From: Lachnospiraceae bacterium
GTDB lineage: Bacteria > Bacillota > Clostridia > Lachnospirales > Lachnospiraceae
Reading direction: 5' to 3'
NCBI GenBank assembly: GCA_022798035.1
Contig: JAAWLS010000053.1
Span: 1 to 10,405 of the forward strand
Length of the DNA: 10,405 bases
Shown: positions 3,184-10,132 of the stretch, in pieces
How the letters are laid out: every line of letters begins with the position of its first letter
Numbering within the stretch: position 1 is the stretch's first letter
Notes under the pieces: model-generated
What the model saw: the letters and a program-made list of their open reading frames with translations, nothing else
Databases searched by the model: none
What the model was told of the DNA's origin: nothing
Program-made: the position numbers and the translations under genes

Positions 3184-3771
3184 TTATTTATCGTATCTTA
3201 GGCTTTTCAGCATTGCTTTTATGTTCCCAAAGCCGGAAGAATTGGAATGTTCTATCACAGCGGAAAGGTATTCTTCATATTCCTTTTCGGTAAGGATATC
3301 CAGATTTTTTAAATTTAGTATGCCGAGAGCCACAGGCATAAAACCCGGATTTTTCTTTTCCCACAAATTTAAAAAGGTTTTATTATCAGCGATGGCATTG
3401 ACTGTAATAGAAAACCTCTGACCATCTGGGGATTTGACAAATAAAGTGTCAGCCTCATTGCAGAGATATATATCAAAAAACAGTGAATTGTGTCTGTTAA
3501 AAATTTCAAATAGCCAGTTTTTCAATCCATCTTTATCCATAATCTTTTTCATTTGTTTCATACCGTTTTCTGGCATACTATGAACGTATTTGGAAGTTTC
3601 GGATTGGAATTTCCGGCATTCTTCCTCTGTTATAATTTCCCAATCTAATAGTTTGAGTAAAGCAATTTCCATATACACAGAATGCGGATTTCCCCTATAC
3701 CATTGTAATAAGACTTGCTCGTCATCACTTAAATCTTCATAATATAAAGTTTTTGTTCCATTTCTTTCCAT
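3184..3771 (-). CDS. uncharacterised protein A1 (long paralog of the gene at 5297)
   Basis: 195 residues, start ATG at 3771 on the minus strand with AAAGGA at 3787-3782 upstream. Residues ~79-195 are clearly homologous to the whole 114-residue protein encoded at 5297-5641. By eye about 40% of positions are identical, including D(T)(L/I)F(V/I)KS, DG(Q/E)RF, LW.KKNP, ALG.LN and TE.E...YLS. Residues 1-78 are an N-terminal extension absent from the paralog, rich in acidic and aromatic residues ('LSDDEQVLLQWYRGNPHS'). No signal peptide, membrane segment or known catalytic motif is visible, so it is probably a small cytoplasmic protein. I do not recognise the family. It is divergently arranged with the ribbon-helix-helix pair starting at 3884, with a very AT-rich 112-bp spacer between. 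The context suggests control by, or partnership with, those DNA-binding proteins; this is inference. Confidence 0.85.
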   Translation of the reverse strand: MERNGTKTLYYEDLSDDEQVLLQWYRGNPHSVYMEIALLKLLDWEIITEEECRKFQSETSKYVHSMPENGMKQMKKIMDKDGLKNWLFEIFNRHNSLFFDIYLCNEADTLFVKSPDGQRFSITVNAIADNKTFLNLWEKKNPGFMPVALGILNLKNLDILTEKEYEEYLSAVIEHSNSSGFGNIKAMLKSLRYDK

Positions 3772-3833
3772 AATAGAATGTTCCTTTCTGGAATAGTATA
3801 AAAGATATTATAAAACATAATATATTTATAATA

Positions 3834-3862
3834 TTTTAGCACAATATAAAATATATTACAAT
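3834..3862 (+). promoter_or_regulatory. candidate promoter of the first RHH gene
   Basis: TTTTAG at 3834-3839 and TACAAT at 3857-3862 are 17 bp apart. The same pair (TTTTAT-17-TACAAT) recurs before the second RHH gene at 4125-4153. Conservation between the two duplicated copies is the main support; the match to consensus is modest. The surrounding 3800-3870 interval is almost entirely A/T and also has to contain the divergent promoter of A1. Confidence 0.35.
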
Positions 3863-3883
3863 AAAAAATAAGAGGTGATAAAA

Positions 3884-4057
3884 ATGTTTAGTCTAAAAAG
3901 GGAATATACAGAATATGAGAACAAATCATTGCGATTGCCTAGTGTTTTAATAGAAAGGGTTCAAGCATTGGCGAACGAAAATGAAATGTCGTTTAATAAA
4001 GTTGTCATCCGCTGTATTGAATATGCGCTGGAAAATAGTGAAAACAATGTCAGATAG
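3884..4057 (+). CDS. ribbon-helix-helix DNA-binding protein, copy 1
   Basis: 57 residues from ATG 3884, chosen because AGAGGTG at 3871-3877 is a properly spaced ribosome site; the in-frame GTG at 3875 lies inside that site. The pattern 'KSLRLPSVLIERVQALANENEMSFNKVVIRCIEYAL' fits the Arc/MetJ/CopG ribbon-helix-helix fold: one beta strand (S-L-R-L-P), helix A, a turn with (S)FNKV, then helix B. Such proteins bind operators as dimers of a two-stranded ribbon. A second, nearly identical gene follows at 4175. The divergent neighbour is A1, and RHH proteins commonly repress their own and adjacent promoters. Antitoxin or autoregulator roles are both possible. Confidence 0.82.
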   Translation: MFSLKREYTEYENKSLRLPSVLIERVQALANENEMSFNKVVIRCIEYALENSENNVR

Positions 4058-4124
4058 ATTCCAATCTGTTTGTTGTTATAAAAATAATATAAATTATATT
4101 ATGAAATACAATATAAAAGTAACA

Positions 4125-4153
4125 TTTTATCATACTGTATTTTACATTACAAT
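4125..4153 (+). promoter_or_regulatory. candidate promoter of the second RHH gene
   Basis: TTTTAT at 4125-4130 and TACAAT at 4148-4153 have the same spacing as the copy before the first RHH gene. The element acaatataaaa is also shared (3841-3851 and 4108-4118). The promoter region was therefore duplicated together with the coding sequence. Confidence 0.35.
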
Positions 4154-4174
4154 AGAAAATAAGAGGTGATAAAA

Positions 4175-4360
4175 ATGTTTAAGCTAAAAAGGGAATATAC
4201 AGAATATGAGAACAAATCATTAAGATTACCGAAAGATTTAATAGAAAAGGTGCAGGCATTGGCAAATGAAAATCAAATGTCATTTAATAAAGTAGTTATT
4301 CAGTGTATTGAATATGCATTGGGAAATATGGAACGTAACGTGGATAATCAAGAAAAATAG
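4175..4360 (+). CDS. ribbon-helix-helix DNA-binding protein, copy 2
   Basis: 61 residues from ATG 4175 behind AAGAGGTG (4161-4168). The first ~50 residues are nearly identical to the gene at 3884, with the same 'KREYTEYENKSLRLP' strand and 'NENQMSFNKVVIQCIEYAL' helices. Differences cluster at the C-terminal tail (NMERNVDNQEK) and at a few exposed helix positions (SVLIER versus KDLIEK). It has its own duplicated leader and ribosome site, and a terminator follows at 4408-4444. The two copies could form heterodimers or have divided the labour on related operators. Confidence 0.82.
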   Translation: MFKLKREYTEYENKSLRLPKDLIEKVQALANENQMSFNKVVIQCIEYALGNMERNVDNQEK

Positions 4361-4407
4361 AGGCAATAAATTTATAAGGTTTGATGAAATAATGAATTAG
4401 TAATTAA

Positions 4408-4444
4408 GGGATATTCTAACAAAATGTGTTGGAACATCCCTTTT
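4408..4444 (+). terminator. Rho-independent terminator of the RHH genes
   Basis: gggatattctaac (4408-4420) pairs with gttggaacatccc (4428-4440), with one A-C mismatch and one G-U pair, around a 7-nt loop, followed by TTTT at 4441-4444. Its arms are close in sequence to those of the terminator at 3112-3155, so the two hairpins bracketing A1 and the RHH pair look related. Confidence 0.75.
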
Positions 4445-4538
4445 CTATCATGGTATTTTTTAGAATCCACACTGATTATCAAATATTCCGTATATATAAG
4501 TCTTTTATGTAGATTGTGGGGAAGTAGTATGGGTGCAT

Positions 4539-4573
4539 AAAAATAGAGAAAGATGCTTTGAGGCGCTTTCTCT
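4539..4573 (-). terminator. terminator of HTH copy 1 (minus strand)
   Basis: agagaaag (4545-4552) pairs with ctttctct (4566-4573). Read on the minus strand, the hairpin is followed by A and TTTTT (complement of 4539-4543). It starts just after the stop of the HTH gene at 4577. The stem of copy 2 is the same sequence. Confidence 0.6.
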
Positions 4574-4576
4574 TAT

Positions 4577-4783
4577 CTAACAATCATCATCTATAAACTC
4601 AACTACATTATCTGCCGTACATTCTAAAATCCTGCATAATTTTTCAAGCGTATTCATGGTGATTGATTTATTACGTTTTAAATTTGTAATTGTGTATGGG
4701 CTGAAATTGTGCTTATGTATAAGGCTGTATGTCGTAACATGACGTTCCTGCATGGTTTTCCATAATGGTTCATACGAAATCAT
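4577..4783 (-). CDS. small Xre-type HTH regulator, copy 1
   Basis: 68 residues. It fits the compact Cro/CI-like HTH family (HTH_26 type): 'YEPLWKTMQERHVTTYSLI', then the helix-turn-helix around 'FSPYTITNLKRNKSITMNTLEKLCRILECTADNVVEF'. It ends in the acidic tail IDDDC. No other domain is present, so it is expected to act as a dimeric DNA-binding protein. The leader (AGAAAGAGAAAATGTT before ATG) has only a weak purine-rich ribosome site, shared with copy 2. The operator-like palindrome at 4844-4855 lies ~60-70 bp upstream of the start, suggesting autoregulation. No gene is divergent from this copy. It differs from copy 2 at only a handful of residues. Confidence 0.84.
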   Translation of the reverse strand: MISYEPLWKTMQERHVTTYSLIHKHNFSPYTITNLKRNKSITMNTLEKLCRILECTADNVVEFIDDDC

Positions 4784-4838
4784 AACATTTTCTCTTTCTG
4801 TTTTTTATTTTATTATCATTCAAACGAAAGCACTTGTA

Positions 4839-4858
4839 TATTAACAAATATTTGTCTA
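4839..4858. promoter_or_regulatory. operator-like site 1
   Basis: It contains the perfect 12-bp palindrome acaaatatttgt (4844-4855) inside a ~20-bp block, tattaac...gtcta, that is repeated at 5214-5233. It lies upstream of HTH copy 1. The TATAAT that overlaps the end of site 2 reads TACAAC here, so the plus-strand promoter has been lost or never existed in this copy. Confidence 0.5.
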
Positions 4859-4914
4859 CAACAAAGGATTCCGTATACCAGGGATTTCCGTAGTGAAAAT
4901 GAGCATAAATATAT

Positions 4915-4949
4915 AAAAACAGAGAAAGATGCTTTCCGGCTCTTTCTCT
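4915..4949 (-). terminator. terminator of HTH copy 2 (minus strand)
   Basis: agagaaaga (4921-4929) pairs with tctttctct (4941-4949). On the minus strand it is followed by G and a run of T (complement of the A-run at 4915-4919). It lies directly after the stop of the HTH gene at 4953. Confidence 0.6.
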
Positions 4950-4952
4950 TGA

Positions 4953-5159
4953 TTAACAACCATCGTCTATAAATTCAACTATATTATCTGCTGTGCAGTT
5001 TAAAATTCTGCATAATTTTTCAAGTGTATTCATGGTGATTGACTTATTGCGTTTCAAGTTGGTAATGGTATATGGACTGAAATTGTGCTTGTATATAAGG
5101 GTATACGTTGTGACGTTTCGCTCCTGCATTGTTTTCCATAGTGGTTCATATGAAATCAT
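4953..5159 (-). CDS. small Xre-type HTH regulator, copy 2
   Basis: 68 residues from ATG at 5159 (MISYEPL...), chosen over the longer open frame to 5255 because the start, leader and length then match copy 1 exactly. The upstream extension would also run through the promoter/operator region. It has the same single HTH_26-type domain, with few substitutions (for example ERN versus ERH, YTLIYKH versus YSLIHKH, tail IDDGC). It is divergent from A2 (5297) across a 137-bp region holding two operator-like sites and a good plus-strand promoter. The simplest reading is a repressor of A2 and of itself, possibly with copy 1 binding the same sites. This role is inferred from position only. Confidence 0.85.
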   Translation of the reverse strand: MISYEPLWKTMQERNVTTYTLIYKHNFSPYTITNLKRNKSITMNTLEKLCRILNCTADNIVEFIDDGC

Positions 5160-5208
5160 AACATTTCTCTTTCTGCTTTTTATTTTATTATCATTCAAAT
5201 GAAAGTGC

Positions 5209-5237
5209 TTGCATATTAACAAATATTTGTCTATAAT
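5209..5237 (+). promoter_or_regulatory. promoter of A2 with an operator in its spacer
   Basis: A perfect TATAAT lies at 5232-5237, 17 bp after TTGCAT at 5209-5214 (3 of 6 to TTGACA). The palindrome acaaatatttgt (5219-5230) fills the spacer between the two boxes. A protein bound there should block RNA polymerase, which fits repression by the adjacent HTH proteins. Confidence 0.5.
5214..5235. promoter_or_regulatory. operator-like site 2
   Basis: This block is nearly identical to site 1 (4839-4858), with the same perfect palindrome at 5219-5230. It overlaps the A2 promoter on the plus strand and lies ~55-75 bp upstream of the HTH copy 2 start on the minus strand. Confidence 0.5.
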
Positions 5238-5246
5238 GGATTTAGA

Positions 5247-5268
5247 TATTAACAAAAATATGTCTATA
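5247..5268. promoter_or_regulatory. operator-like site 3 (diverged)
   Basis: tattaacaaaaatatgtcta differs from site 2 at two central positions. Its centre is 33 bp from that of site 2, close to three helical turns, so two dimers would sit on the same face of the DNA. It is about 30 bp upstream of the A2 start codon. Confidence 0.45.
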
Positions 5269-5296
5269 AAATACTGGAAAGGGAAAACGAATCGTT

Positions 5297-5641
5297 ATGG
5301 ACGTGGATGAATTAAAAAATTTATTGTTTGAAATGCTAGAGGGGAATGGAGAGTTGTTTTCCGACCTGTCACTGGATGATGAAACGGACACTATATTTAT
5401 CAAATCTGTTGATGGGGAAAGGTTTATTGTCACTGTTAGTCCTGTGACAGCGGATGAAACGCTCATAGAGCTGTGGGCAAAAAAGAATCCGGAATTGATG
5501 TCTCTTGCCCTCGGAGTATTAAATATGAGGGATTTAGGAGCTTTTACAGAGGAGGAAGCTGACAAATATTTATCGGAAATTTTAGAACGTGCCGATAATT
5601 CTATTGTTGAGGATTTGGCTAAGCTTAGGAATGATGGATAA
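5297..5641 (+). CDS. uncharacterised protein A2 (short paralog of the gene at 3184-3771)
   Basis: 114 residues, strongly acidic ('SLDDETDTIF', 'TADETLIEL', 'TEEEADKYLSEILERAD'). The whole length aligns with residues ~79-195 of A1, and the start MDVDELKNLLFE matches MDKDGLKNWLFE in A1, which supports ATG 5297. The upstream AAAGGG (5278-5283) is 13 bases away, an unusually long spacing that may mean weak translation. Shared motifs are D(T)IF(I)KS.DG.RF, LW.KKNP, M..ALG.LN and a C-terminal helix. No signal peptide or membrane segment is seen and I do not recognise the family. It is divergent from HTH copy 2, with two operator-like sites between them, and is closed by a terminator at 5678-5706. 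Confidence 0.85.
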   Translation: MDVDELKNLLFEMLEGNGELFSDLSLDDETDTIFIKSVDGERFIVTVSPVTADETLIELWAKKNPELMSLALGVLNMRDLGAFTEEEADKYLSEILERADNSIVEDLAKLRNDG

Positions 5642-6477: not shown

Positions 6478-6795
6478 ATGTATTATGATGTGCAGAAAAG
6501 CGCAGAAAGGATAAGGGATTTAAGGACAGGTAGCAACTTAACCCAGAGCGAGGCGGCAGAGAAGATGGGATTTTCCCTCAGCGGATACCGTAAGCTGGAG
6601 CAGGCACAGAACGGAGGAAGTATAGACAGTCTGATAATGGTAGCAGATTATTACCATATTTCCCTTGATTATCTGGTATATGGAGAGGAACGGGATTACA
6701 TAACAAGTCTGTCCGAGGGTTTGACAGACAGCCAGAAACGGGTTGTCCGGGCTACCATAGCAAGCCTGATACAGAACATAAAAAAATTTTCGTAG
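6478..6795 (+). CDS. Xre-family HTH regulator of the integrative element
   Basis: 105 residues from ATG 6478, fixed by AGGAGG at 6465-6470; a longer frame from 6382 would cross two hairpins and has no ribosome site. Residues ~8-65 are a Cro/CI-type HTH: 'SAERIRDLRTGSNLTQSEAAEKMGFSLSGYRKLEQAQNGGSIDSLIMVADYYHISLDYLVYG', with the typical LTQ..AA..MG recognition region and the 'D.L.YG' closing motif. The C-terminal ~35 residues (SLSEGLTDSQKRVVRATIASLIQNI) form a helical region likely used for dimerisation. Regulators of this kind are typically found in the control region of conjugative or mobilisable elements and often repress excision or transfer genes. Its translation may be limited by the hairpin over its ribosome site. 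Its targets are not known from this window. Confidence 0.88.
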   Translation: MYYDVQKSAERIRDLRTGSNLTQSEAAEKMGFSLSGYRKLEQAQNGGSIDSLIMVADYYHISLDYLVYGEERDYITSLSEGLTDSQKRVVRATIASLIQNIKKFS

Positions 6796-7418: not shown

Positions 7419-7799
7419 ATGATGGGCTACGAAAAAAACCAAATAGTAAAAGGTATTTTGTTTATAAGCAGCATGAAGTGTCAGAAGAATGTGGAGCGGA
7501 TGGCGGAGCAGATAACAGTGCAGTGTGCGGGGAGAAACATTCTTGTGGAAGATGTGGCGGTGGAGCATAACCTGATTGGAGATATGGATATGGACAGGCC
7601 GGTGATAAAGTCTGTCGTCAATGCCGTTGTAAACAGGGGTTATGAGGTTCTGGCGCTCCGTAACCAATATGATGTGACAGAGGATTATTCCGATTGGGAG
7701 AAATTTGTGGGCAGCATGGCGGATATGGGTGTGCAGGTGTATCTGGCAGATGCGGGTGAGTTTGCCGGCAGTGTTTATGGAGGGGAAAGTGGAGATTAA
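7419..7799 (+). CDS. catalytically degenerate serine-recombinase-like protein
   Basis: 126 residues from ATG 7419 behind GGAGG (7408-7412). The order of elements matches a resolvase/invertase N-terminal domain. It has a first strand (KGILFISSMK), a long helix, 'VEHNLIGDMDMDRPVIKSVVNAVVNRG' like the 'gisG....RP.l..ll..v..G' segment, a strand 'YEVLALRNQYDVTED' at the 'vlv...dRlsR' position, and 'GVQVYLADAGEF' like 'Gv.v....e'. Arg60 of the RP motif is kept. The Tyr-x-Arg-x-Ser motif of the first strand and the DR..R motif are not (ISSMK; YDVTE), so strand cleavage is unlikely. It overlaps the MazF gene by 11 bp. It may be a DNA-binding or protein-binding partner, perhaps modulating the large recombinase or acting as the toxin's partner. 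That role is inference. Confidence 0.78.
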   Translation: MMGYEKNQIVKGILFISSMKCQKNVERMAEQITVQCAGRNILVEDVAVEHNLIGDMDMDRPVIKSVVNAVVNRGYEVLALRNQYDVTEDYSDWEKFVGSMADMGVQVYLADAGEFAGSVYGGESGD

Positions 7800-8142
7800 A
7801 AGAGGCGACATTATCATTGTGGATTTGGGACAGCATGAAACATCAGTCCAGTCGGGAATCCGGCCTTGTGTTGTTATGAGCAACGACATGGCAAACAGGC
7901 ACAGCCCGGTTATCACGGTTGTCCCGCTTACTTCAAAGATACGGAAAAAACAGTATTTGCCAACTCATGTATTTTTGAACAGATATAGGAATAGCGGGTT
8001 GGAATGCCACAGCCTTGCCCTCTGCGAGCAGATTACTTCCGTTGCTTTTTCGGATGTTTTAGAGGTGGCAGGCAGGGTAAGTTGGAGAAAGATGGCTGAG
8101 ATAGGCCATGCTGTTAAGGTACAGTGTGGATTGGCGGCATGA
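7789..8142 (+). CDS. MazF/PemK-family endoribonuclease toxin
   Basis: 117 residues from GTG 7789, giving the family's typical N-terminus MEIKRGDIIIVDLG. GGAGG at 7779-7783 is 5 bases upstream and lies inside the preceding gene; ATG 7777 is an alternative without a ribosome site. Hallmarks are 'SGIRPCVVMSNDMANRHSPVITVVPLTSKIRKKQYLPTHV', then 'ECHSLALCEQITSV'. Arg25 and Thr48 correspond to the catalytic Arg and Thr of MazF enzymes, which cut single-stranded mRNA at short motifs. The usual 'EQIRT' Arg is replaced (EQITS). Length is normal for the family. No MazE-like gene precedes it; the recombinase-like protein takes that place. Translational coupling is expected at both its ends, since it overlaps both neighbours. 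Confidence 0.9.
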   Translation: MEIKRGDIIIVDLGQHETSVQSGIRPCVVMSNDMANRHSPVITVVPLTSKIRKKQYLPTHVFLNRYRNSGLECHSLALCEQITSVAFSDVLEVAGRVSWRKMAEIGHAVKVQCGLAA

Positions 8143-8443: not shown

Positions 8444-10132
8444 ATGGCAGGAGAAGTGGAAGTTATTAAAGCGGTAGAAGGAAACGGAATCAGACGCAGG
8501 AATATGGTTGGCAATGGCCTTTCGATTGAAAGAAAAAAAGTGGCGGCATATGTGCGGGTGAGTACCGATGGCGAAGAACAGTTACAGAGCTTTCAGTCAC
8601 AGAAAACATATTATCAAGAGAAGATTTCCAAAGAAAAAGAGTGGGTAATGGTTGGCATCTATGCGGATGAAGCGATTACAGGAACTAAGACAGTCAAGAG
8701 AGACGGTTTCCTGAAAATGATTAACGACTGCATGGCAGGCATGATTGATGTTATCCTCACAAAATCCATATCCAGATTTTCCCGTAATCTGGTAGATACC
8801 CTTCAATATGTCCGTATGCTCAAAGAAAAGGGGATAGCGGTTATTTTTGAAAAAGAGAATATTAACACGCTTTCAATGGAAAGTGAGATGGCATTGGCAT
8901 TGCTTTCCACCCTTGCTCAGAATGAAGTGGAATCGTTATCTGCAAATGTAAAAATGGGAATCAAAATGAAAATGAAACGTGGCGAAATGATGGGGTTCAA
9001 TGGCTGCCTCGGTTATGATTACCATCCAGAGGATAAGAGCATTACTGTAAATCCGGGGGAGGCAGAGAGTGTTCGTGAAATATTCGATATGTATTTAAGA
9101 GGGTATGGTGCGCCGACAATAGCAAAGGAACTGACCAAGCTTGGCAGAAAGAACAAGAAAGGGGAAGTGAAATGGACAGAAAGCGGGATAAGGACGATTA
9201 TCAATAATGAAAAGTATAAGGGAGACCTCCGGCTGGGAAAAACCTTTACGGTTGATCCGATTTCAAAGCGCAGGCTTGAAAATATGGGCGAAGAAGAACA
9301 GTATTATATCAAAGAACACCATGAGCCTATCGTTTCACCCGAAATATGGGATGCAGCACAGGAGATTAAAAAGAGCCGCTACCGCAAAAATGCAATGTCC
9401 ATTGAGGGAACAAGAAAGAAGTACAGTAGGAAATTTGCTTTCAGCAGTATGTGTGAATGTGGATTTTGTGGAAAGTATCTAACGAGACGTGCCCATAATC
9501 AGACAACAACACAGACAAAGCCAGTATGGAAATGCAGGACTGCTACCAATTTTGGCATTGAGAACTGTCCGCACAGCAAGTCAATTGACGAGGCAATCAT
9601 TGAAAATGCCTTCATTGAAATGTTTCATCTACTTGCAGACAACTTTGATGATGTTCTGGATTTGGTTATCCATTCTGTTGAGGAGACATTATCGAATGAT
9701 GAAAGTGCCATTAAGTTGCAAAAGGTAAATAAAACTCTTGACTTGCTGGAATCAAAGAGAAAGAAATTGACCGATATGCTGTTAGATGATAAGATTACGA
9801 AAGAGGCATACGATGCAAAGTATAATGAATTGACACGAAAGATTAACCAGACAAAAGGGGAACGCTCGTTGTATTCTTCAAATGTAGAGGCACAAAAGCA
9901 TGTCAGCCAGAGAATGAAAGAGATTCGTGCCTGTATTACAGAGGCAGATATGCTTGATAAATTCGACAGAGCAGTTTTCGAGAGCATTGTTGAAAAGGTG
10001 ATTGTTGGTGATATGAATGAGGATGGAATAGTCGATCCATATAAGCTGACATTTGTGCTGAAAGGTATGGATGACAGGGTTGTACCGGATGCAAAAAGAC
10101 GGTATAAAAATTTGAATAAGAAAATTGGTTAG
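8444..10132 (+). CDS. large serine recombinase (integrase/excisionase of the element)
   Basis: 562 residues from ATG 8444, set by AAGGAGG at 8430-8436; an in-frame GTG upstream would run through the 29-bp hairpin. The catalytic domain spans residues ~32-165: 'VAAYVRVST' with Tyr36, Arg38 and nucleophile Ser40, 'SISRFSRN' (Arg111, Arg114) and 'EVESLSANVKMG' into helix E. The Recombinase domain follows at ~185-315 (GYDY, EAESVREIFDMYL, G...IA..L, W....I..I..NEKYKG). Then comes a zinc ribbon with Cys339, Cys342, Cys364 and Cys375, a coiled-coil segment at ~420-500, and a C-terminal segment. All features of an active large serine recombinase are present, at the usual length. Such enzymes integrate and excise elements at short att sites. 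Another gene begins 35 bp downstream. The att sites are not in view. Confidence 0.96.
   Translation: MAGEVEVIKAVEGNGIRRRNMVGNGLSIERKKVAAYVRVSTDGEEQLQSFQSQKTYYQEKISKEKEWVMVGIYADEAITGTKTVKRDGFLKMINDCMAGMIDVILTKSISRFSRNLVDTLQYVRMLKEKGIAVIFEKENINTLSMESEMALALLSTLAQNEVESLSANVKMGIKMKMKRGEMMGFNGCLGYDYHPEDKSITVNPGEAESVREIFDMYLRGYGAPTIAKELTKLGRKNKKGEVKWTESGIRTIINNEKYKGDLRLGKTFTVDPISKRRLENMGEEEQYYIKEHHEPIVSPEIWDAAQEIKKSRYRKNAMSIEGTRKKYSRKFAFSSMCECGFCGKYLTRRAHNQTTTQTKPVWKCRTATNFGIENCPHSKSIDEAIIENAFIEMFHLLADNFDDVLDLVIHSVEETLSNDESAIKLQKVNKTLDLLESKRKKLTDMLLDDKITKEAYDAKYNELTRKINQTKGERSLYSSNVEAQKHVSQRMKEIRACITEADMLDKFDRAVFESIVEKVIVGDMNEDGIVDPYKLTFVLKGMDDRVVPDAKRRYKNLNKKIG

Follow-up and report, generated by a model that had tools for sequence, protein, structure and literature searches.

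The stretch of DNA considered here (10,405 nt, hereafter the window) is contig JAAWLS010000053.1, C27 in our numbering, of a Lachnospiraceae bacterium whose assembly (GCA_022798035.1) comprises 2.26 Mb in 325 contigs and is estimated to be 64% complete. It carries a cluster of six small genes: two paralogs, A1 and A2, two ribbon-helix-helix (RHH) genes, RHH1 and RHH2, and two helix-turn-helix (HTH) genes, HTH1 and HTH2. All six were confirmed at the positions first given (Table 1). An earlier note, made from the letters of the DNA, had described A1 as divergent from two tandem RHH genes and A2 as divergent from two tandem HTH genes, and gene positions and Pfam matches agree with this description. 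The paralogy of A1 and A2 also holds (46% identity over 102 residues, E 4e-34), with the refinement that A1 has an extra N-terminal hairpin domain. The regulator genes are paired as the note had claimed, each pair being a tandem duplication that reaches into the upstream DNA (duplicated stretches of 251 nt at 82%, and of 254 and 73 nt at 85 and 92%). Since it recurs in other genomes, the arrangement is not a product of chance.

Table 1. Genes and candidate control sites of the A1/A2 cluster, in window coordinates.
Feature	Positions	Strand	Description
A1	3184-3771	-	195 aa, H-C-H architecture; unnamed family
A1-RHH1 divergent regulatory region	3772-3883		22-nt core identical in L011 and L013 (other Arc-like-RHH loci)
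Promoter-like site toward A1	3833-3861	-	TTGTAA-N17-TAAAAT; TG precedes second hexamer
RHH1	3884-4057	+	57 aa ribbon-helix-helix, 82% identical to RHH2; Arc match below Pfam cut-off
Copy of A1 promoter-like site	4124-4152		Upstream of RHH2; no A gene behind
RHH2	4175-4360	+	61 aa Arc-like ribbon-helix-helix; tandem paralog of RHH1
HTH1	4577-4783	-	68 aa, HTH_26
Operator-like box, copy 1	4839-4861	+	Upstream of HTH1; no A gene behind
HTH2	4953-5159	-	68 aa, HTH_26; tandem paralog of HTH1, 91% aa identity
Operator-like box, copy 2	5214-5236	+	Upstream of HTH2; contains palindrome ACAAATATTTGT (5219-5230)
Operator-like box, copy 3	5247-5269	+	Tandem with copy 2, before A2
A2	5297-5641	+	114 aa, C-H architecture, pI 4.05

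A second local match between the two proteins pairs the C-terminal hairpin of A2 with the N-terminus of A1, and two modules were therefore named. The C domain is about 53 residues long with an alpha-beta-beta-beta arrangement, and the H domain is a helical hairpin with a W..NP...TEEE pattern. For A2 an alpha-beta-beta-beta-alpha-alpha-alpha fold is predicted (mean pLDDT 82, pTM only 0.51), with helices at residues 3-15, 54-61, 65-79 and 85-112 and strands at 21-27, 32-37 and 42-46. The earlier note had left room for a match to a well-characterised family; no model of Pfam, NCBIfam, PHROGs or PADLOC matches A1 or A2 above cut-off or convincingly. A search with A2 returned 133 proteins at E ≤ 0.001 (120 listed) and a search with A1 returned 3. 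Among the matches listed, the few rows that name an organism give Lachnospiraceae bacterium, and the few that name a gene give 'hypothetical protein' or 'Uncharacterized', two rows having only an MGnify tag. A scan of a species-genome collection found 12 loci (numbered below with an L), two of which, L004 and L005, repeat the window's own locus; at window point 3159/3160, L004 has about 1.9 kb of DNA that neither L005 nor the window has. Searching eight genomes that hold A loci gave 20 matches. Profiles of the C domain by itself revealed shorter relatives. At E ≤ 0.01 they matched 26 of 397 genomes of the family (21 matches reach E ≤ 1e-3) and, out of 979 candidates, 819 protein clusters (120 listed). 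The window's own genome has a further C-H homolog, its third, on contig C304 (L022); it is distant, its frame is interrupted, and it is divergent from an RHH-like gene that is followed by an open reading frame (ORF) with a P-loop, recognised by eye.

The pairing with a regulator extends across the relatives. Nineteen H-bearing genes were tabulated (window A1 and A2; two at L006; one each at L007-L010; three at L011; and L012, L013, L014, L015, L035, L036, L022 and L058), with L004, L005 and the other loci from the eight-genome search left out as repeats and the separate H and C-H reading frames of L007 and L008 counted once. A small DNA-binding gene is immediately divergent in 18 of these 19, which include the near-copies L012/L015 and the H-only genes of L006/L036; the exception is L058. 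The homologs are thus not scattered without conserved regulator neighbours, as the earlier note had allowed they might be. Its idea of one effector type with alternative regulators stands insofar as unrelated folds occupy the same position, while the partner kinds number at least five and not two: two RHH types, HTH_26 and two HTH_3 types. Arc-like RHH proteins partner window A1, L011 and L013, and against the Pfam Arc cut-off of 20.4 bits RHH2 (20.9), L013 (21.7) and L011 (21.3) pass and RHH1 (13.6) falls below. The second RHH type occurs at L007-L010; three were scanned, of which the L010 partner passes the RHH_1 cut-off and the L007 and L009 partners have RHH-type models as their best matches, below cut-off. 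HTH_26 partners are found at window A2 (HTH1 and HTH2 match at 4e-14 and 1e-14, above cut-off) and twice at L011, 113-aa HTH partners at L006 (twice), L035 and L036, and 77-79 aa HTH partners at L012, L014 and L015. The L022 partner is a further RHH-like protein, weakly recognised (RHH_1 E 0.16).

This pairing was set against a background drawn from 11 loci: 85 genes that encode 45-250 aa and have a recognised ribosome-binding site. A divergent neighbour lies within 400 bp of 20 of the 85. For 14 it is a small regulator, and every one of these 14 belongs to the A family (L012 and the near-copy L015 are counted separately). None of the remaining 71 is paired, a group that includes A2, whose partner HTH2 was replaced in the automatic list by a false frame that overlaps it. 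Because the profiles used to recognise regulators derive from these same ones, the background for other regulators may be low. A pairing is well above the local background. Beyond the regulators the neighbourhoods vary, with mobilisation genes (L006), a YhcG nuclease (L009), a DDE transposase and D12 methylase (L010), HsdM (L012), DnaJ (L013), an M42 peptidase (L014) and no match for two of the ten neighbours scanned; the module therefore occurs in mobile-looking and ordinary surroundings alike.

Partner kind is exchanged readily within the family. On a tree of 15 A domains, regulator kind changes nine times (the minimum would be 4; shuffles average 9.5, and 94/200 are as low), and one well-supported clade of three rows holds three regulator kinds; support is weak for most inner branches (3 of 12 starred), and the program flags two long rows. 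Judged without the tree, 11 of 14 A proteins (L015 omitted as a near-copy of L012) have as their nearest A relative one with a different kind of regulator. The proteins of L006b, with an HTH partner, and L008, with an RHH partner, are 90% identical over 118 residues. Regulators also move between A genes and relatives that have the C domain without H (C-only): among four HTH proteins compared, the closest to HTH2 is that of L070 (38 of 68 residues), which faces a C-only gene followed by SymE, and the HTH of L011, where the facing gene is an A gene, has 26 of 68 residues in common with HTH2.

The DNA between the divergent genes follows the regulator. Across 14 units (L008, L015, L022 and L036 omitted), same-kind intergenic pairs have a median z of 23.2 (n=13) and different-kind pairs a median of 0.4 (n=78); z is above 12 in 11 of the 13 same-kind pairs, two of the 11 being neighbouring units of one locus, and above 4 in 2 of the 78 different-kind pairs. 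Exact cores are shared among the units compared: 22 nt by the three Arc-like loci, 18 nt by three second-RHH loci and 15 nt by three units with a 113-aa HTH. Inverted repeats are reached by at most 4 of 200 shuffles in 9 of 24 intergenic regions tested, and those of L011b, L048 and L055 by 0/200; period-10 direct repeats at the three second-RHH loci tested are reached by 2, 16 and 2 of 200. In the window, the box TATTAACAAAWATWTGTCTAYAA has three copies, upstream of HTH1, upstream of HTH2 and before A2 (0 in 200 shuffles), a pattern written from the copies themselves that shows repetition, not independent discovery. The HTH1 copy, which has no A gene behind it, is consistent with autoregulation. 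The palindrome ACAAATATTTGT lies within the 17-nt spacer of TTGCAT-N17-TATAAT (5209-5237), which reads toward A2, matches in its first hexamer at 3/6 only and is absent from the list of promoter-like hits. Intergenic DNA is conserved with regulator kind and not across kinds, and regulator and putative operator thus behave as a swappable control cassette.

Both window units carry tandem regulator copies, as do L007, L008 (where one copy lacks the usual start codon), L009, L010, the Arc-like unit of L011, L035 and the C-only locus L046; other units have a single copy. Silent sites of the window copies have diverged while the protein is kept (HTH1/HTH2: dN 0.044, dS 1.41, dN/dS 0.03; RHH1/RHH2: dN 0.112, dS 0.97, dN/dS 0.12), and the copies are under strong purifying selection. 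Such constraint bears on the possibility that these are local repressor genes beside decaying passenger genes with no joint function. The interrupted frame of the third homolog, a difference of 7% of residues between A1 and L005, and five relatives without a recognised regulator (L047, L056, L058, L059 and L071) are what decay would produce, whereas dN/dS is 0.15-0.29 for the three measurable A pairs and 0.03-0.26 for the seven measurable regulator pairs, and pairing stands well above the local background. Decay is considered highly improbable.

We read the locus as two complete copies of a repressor-gated module, with a probability of about one half. The sequences themselves show the layout, its recurrence, the exchange of partners and control DNA that is conserved by regulator kind. 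Beyond these, we infer that a small RHH or HTH repressor, duplicated here, would bind operators in the shared divergent promoter region and hold down both its own gene and the facing A gene. Loss or dilution of the repressor, for instance when an element enters a repressor-free cell or an inducing signal arrives, would allow A to be made. Regulator and operator would form a portable cassette, swapped by evolution before the same A family. A itself, small and mostly acidic, most likely acts by binding another protein, as an antirepressor-like or element-control-like protein and not as a classical type II toxin; what it binds is the least certain part of the reading.

Among known systems, the phage P22 immI region, whose Arc and Mnt are RHH proteins, offers a model for such a switch. 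There, the Mnt and Arc repressors control the antirepressor Ant (PMC11016777). The A loci resemble immI in that small repressors are predicted to control a neighbouring gene and in having an Arc-family RHH regulator, a likeness carried by RHH2, L011 and L013, which pass the Arc cut-off, and confined within the window to the A1 unit; RHH2 also has a weak PDB match to Arc (E 0.079). They differ in that the ten neighbour genes scanned at A loci include no recognised phage gene and in that other A loci use HTH repressors, A and Ant having been compared through profile libraries only.

A divergently encoded toxin-antitoxin system, in which A would be the toxin and the RHH or HTH protein an antitoxin that both represses and neutralises, is rather unlikely. 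It is typical of type II systems that partners of unrelated structure, RHH and Xre proteins among them, are exchanged around one toxin family (PMC2701414). The A family likewise combines with unrelated RHH and HTH partners; gene sizes, several copies in one genome, C-only relatives that adjoin SymE, and some copies beside mobilisation or restriction-modification genes would also suit a toxin. The genes share no operon, however, being divergent in the window and at the other A loci tabulated, and no toxin model of the four libraries matches A1 or A2, though A might belong to a new toxin family. The regulators are short: of 33 listed, 26 have 49-79 aa, one has 88 aa and six have 108-113 aa, and the RHH and HTH_26 partners (49-77 aa) are essentially bare DNA-binding domains with almost no tail. 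A 90% identical A pair with partners of unrelated folds is also hard to square with specific neutralising contacts. Divergent genes and almost tail-less partners make a classical type II system less likely, and a repressor-gated switch working like P22 immI is favoured over it because those 26 of 33 regulators are essentially bare DNA-binding domains; an element-control switch would fit better.

Several observations weigh against the repressor-gated switch. The 113- and 108-aa HTH partners have about 45 residues beyond the bare domain, which could bind a toxin, and RHH partners match Pfam antitoxin models, all below cut-off (CopG_antitoxin at 4.5e-5 to 0.0055, BrnA and CcdA); these longer partners and sub-cut-off matches leave room for a toxin-antitoxin system. 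The window HTH_26 intergenic DNA is unlike that of L011 (z -0.5 and -0.7, the two same-kind exceptions), the window palindrome alone is ordinary for its composition (97/200 shuffles), and the number of promoter-like sites in the region (18) does not exceed that in shuffles (15.3, sd 3.3). A structural check of A gave no convincing match, and the five relatives without a recognised regulator count here as well. Searches of phage, plasmid and viral collections with the queries used found no relative, which leaves element control as a candidate role.

An alternative role for A would be to antagonise repressors promiscuously, both its own and others, for instance as an acidic DNA mimic that titrates DNA-binding proteins of several folds and closes a feedback loop. 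This would explain the free exchange of regulators, and the proteins are acidic (123 A-family proteins have a median net charge of -12, and the 120 listed C-only proteins one of -7; A2 as in Table 1). It is nonetheless decidedly unlikely: many small bacterial proteins are acidic, A1 is only mildly so (pI 5.3), and the highest net charge is -1 among the A proteins and +1 among the C-only proteins.

The C-only relatives have surroundings of their own. Among 17 C-only or C-fusion matches in the family genomes (E ≤ 1e-3), 12 directly face an HTH gene, four of them (L051-L054) being near-copies of one locus; two, the near-copies L050 and L069, face one across a same-strand gene, and three (L047, L056 and L059) do not. 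In a class-wide search L070 faces an HTH gene and L071, a near-copy of L059, does not. A SymE_toxin gene follows the C-only gene at L049 (Pfam 9e-20), L046 (1e-8) and L070 (6e-16), and the SymE-like proteins of L050-L054 are identical to that of L049 at 47-56 of 62 residues. The gene order of L046, L049-L054 and L070, with SymE or a SymE-like gene behind the gene for a small C-domain protein and an HTH gene opposite (at L050 across one further gene), is a recurrent unannotated module. The C domain might then be an accessory, adaptor or modulator, of SymE-type modules, with the A family an offshoot without SymE, and the closeness of HTH2 to the HTH that faces the C-only/SymE operon of L070 points the same way. 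The gene lists of the A family, judged by eye and with neighbours not scanned singly, show no SymE beside A, and none was found among ten window proteins scanned, both A genes and the four regulators included, so that neither A1 nor A2 adjoins one; this origin is very unlikely. At L055 (1492-1986) the C domain ends a longer protein that faces an RstR-like HTH and resembles DUF6809 by eye, a likeness unconfirmed by Pfam. The C-only gene of L059 and L071 lies between integrase-like and primase-like ORFs, named by eye.

HTH2 additionally matches PDB 3tyr (E 4.8e-5), which is VanUg. Its score against the VanU model is 26.4 bits, far below the cut-off of 150, and no glycopeptide-resistance gene is present among the window proteins scanned. 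Elsewhere in the window lie an RstR-like HTH gene (6478-6795; NF041951, 6.7e-15, below cut-off), within 7422-8142 a MazF/PemK toxin gene (PF02452, 1e-24) behind a gene that lacks any Pfam match and has only sub-threshold NCBIfam matches, possibly an unrecognised antitoxin, and, beside the cluster, a large serine recombinase (8447-10132) resembling the Ccr and XisF models, both below cut-off.

At these loci evolution appears to have exchanged whole control units, repressor together with putative operator DNA, upstream of one conserved protein, whose family has no model in the four libraries searched, although A2 finds 133 database proteins and the C-domain profile 819 clusters. It is a speculative proposal that Clostridia might have a new class of mobile control modules with the A/C family as effector: entire repressor-plus-operator cassettes, unrelated in fold, would be exchanged before one protein, itself a fold-agnostic antagonist of DNA-binding proteins. 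The pairing of A with its regulator makes the function directly testable with simple two-gene constructs.

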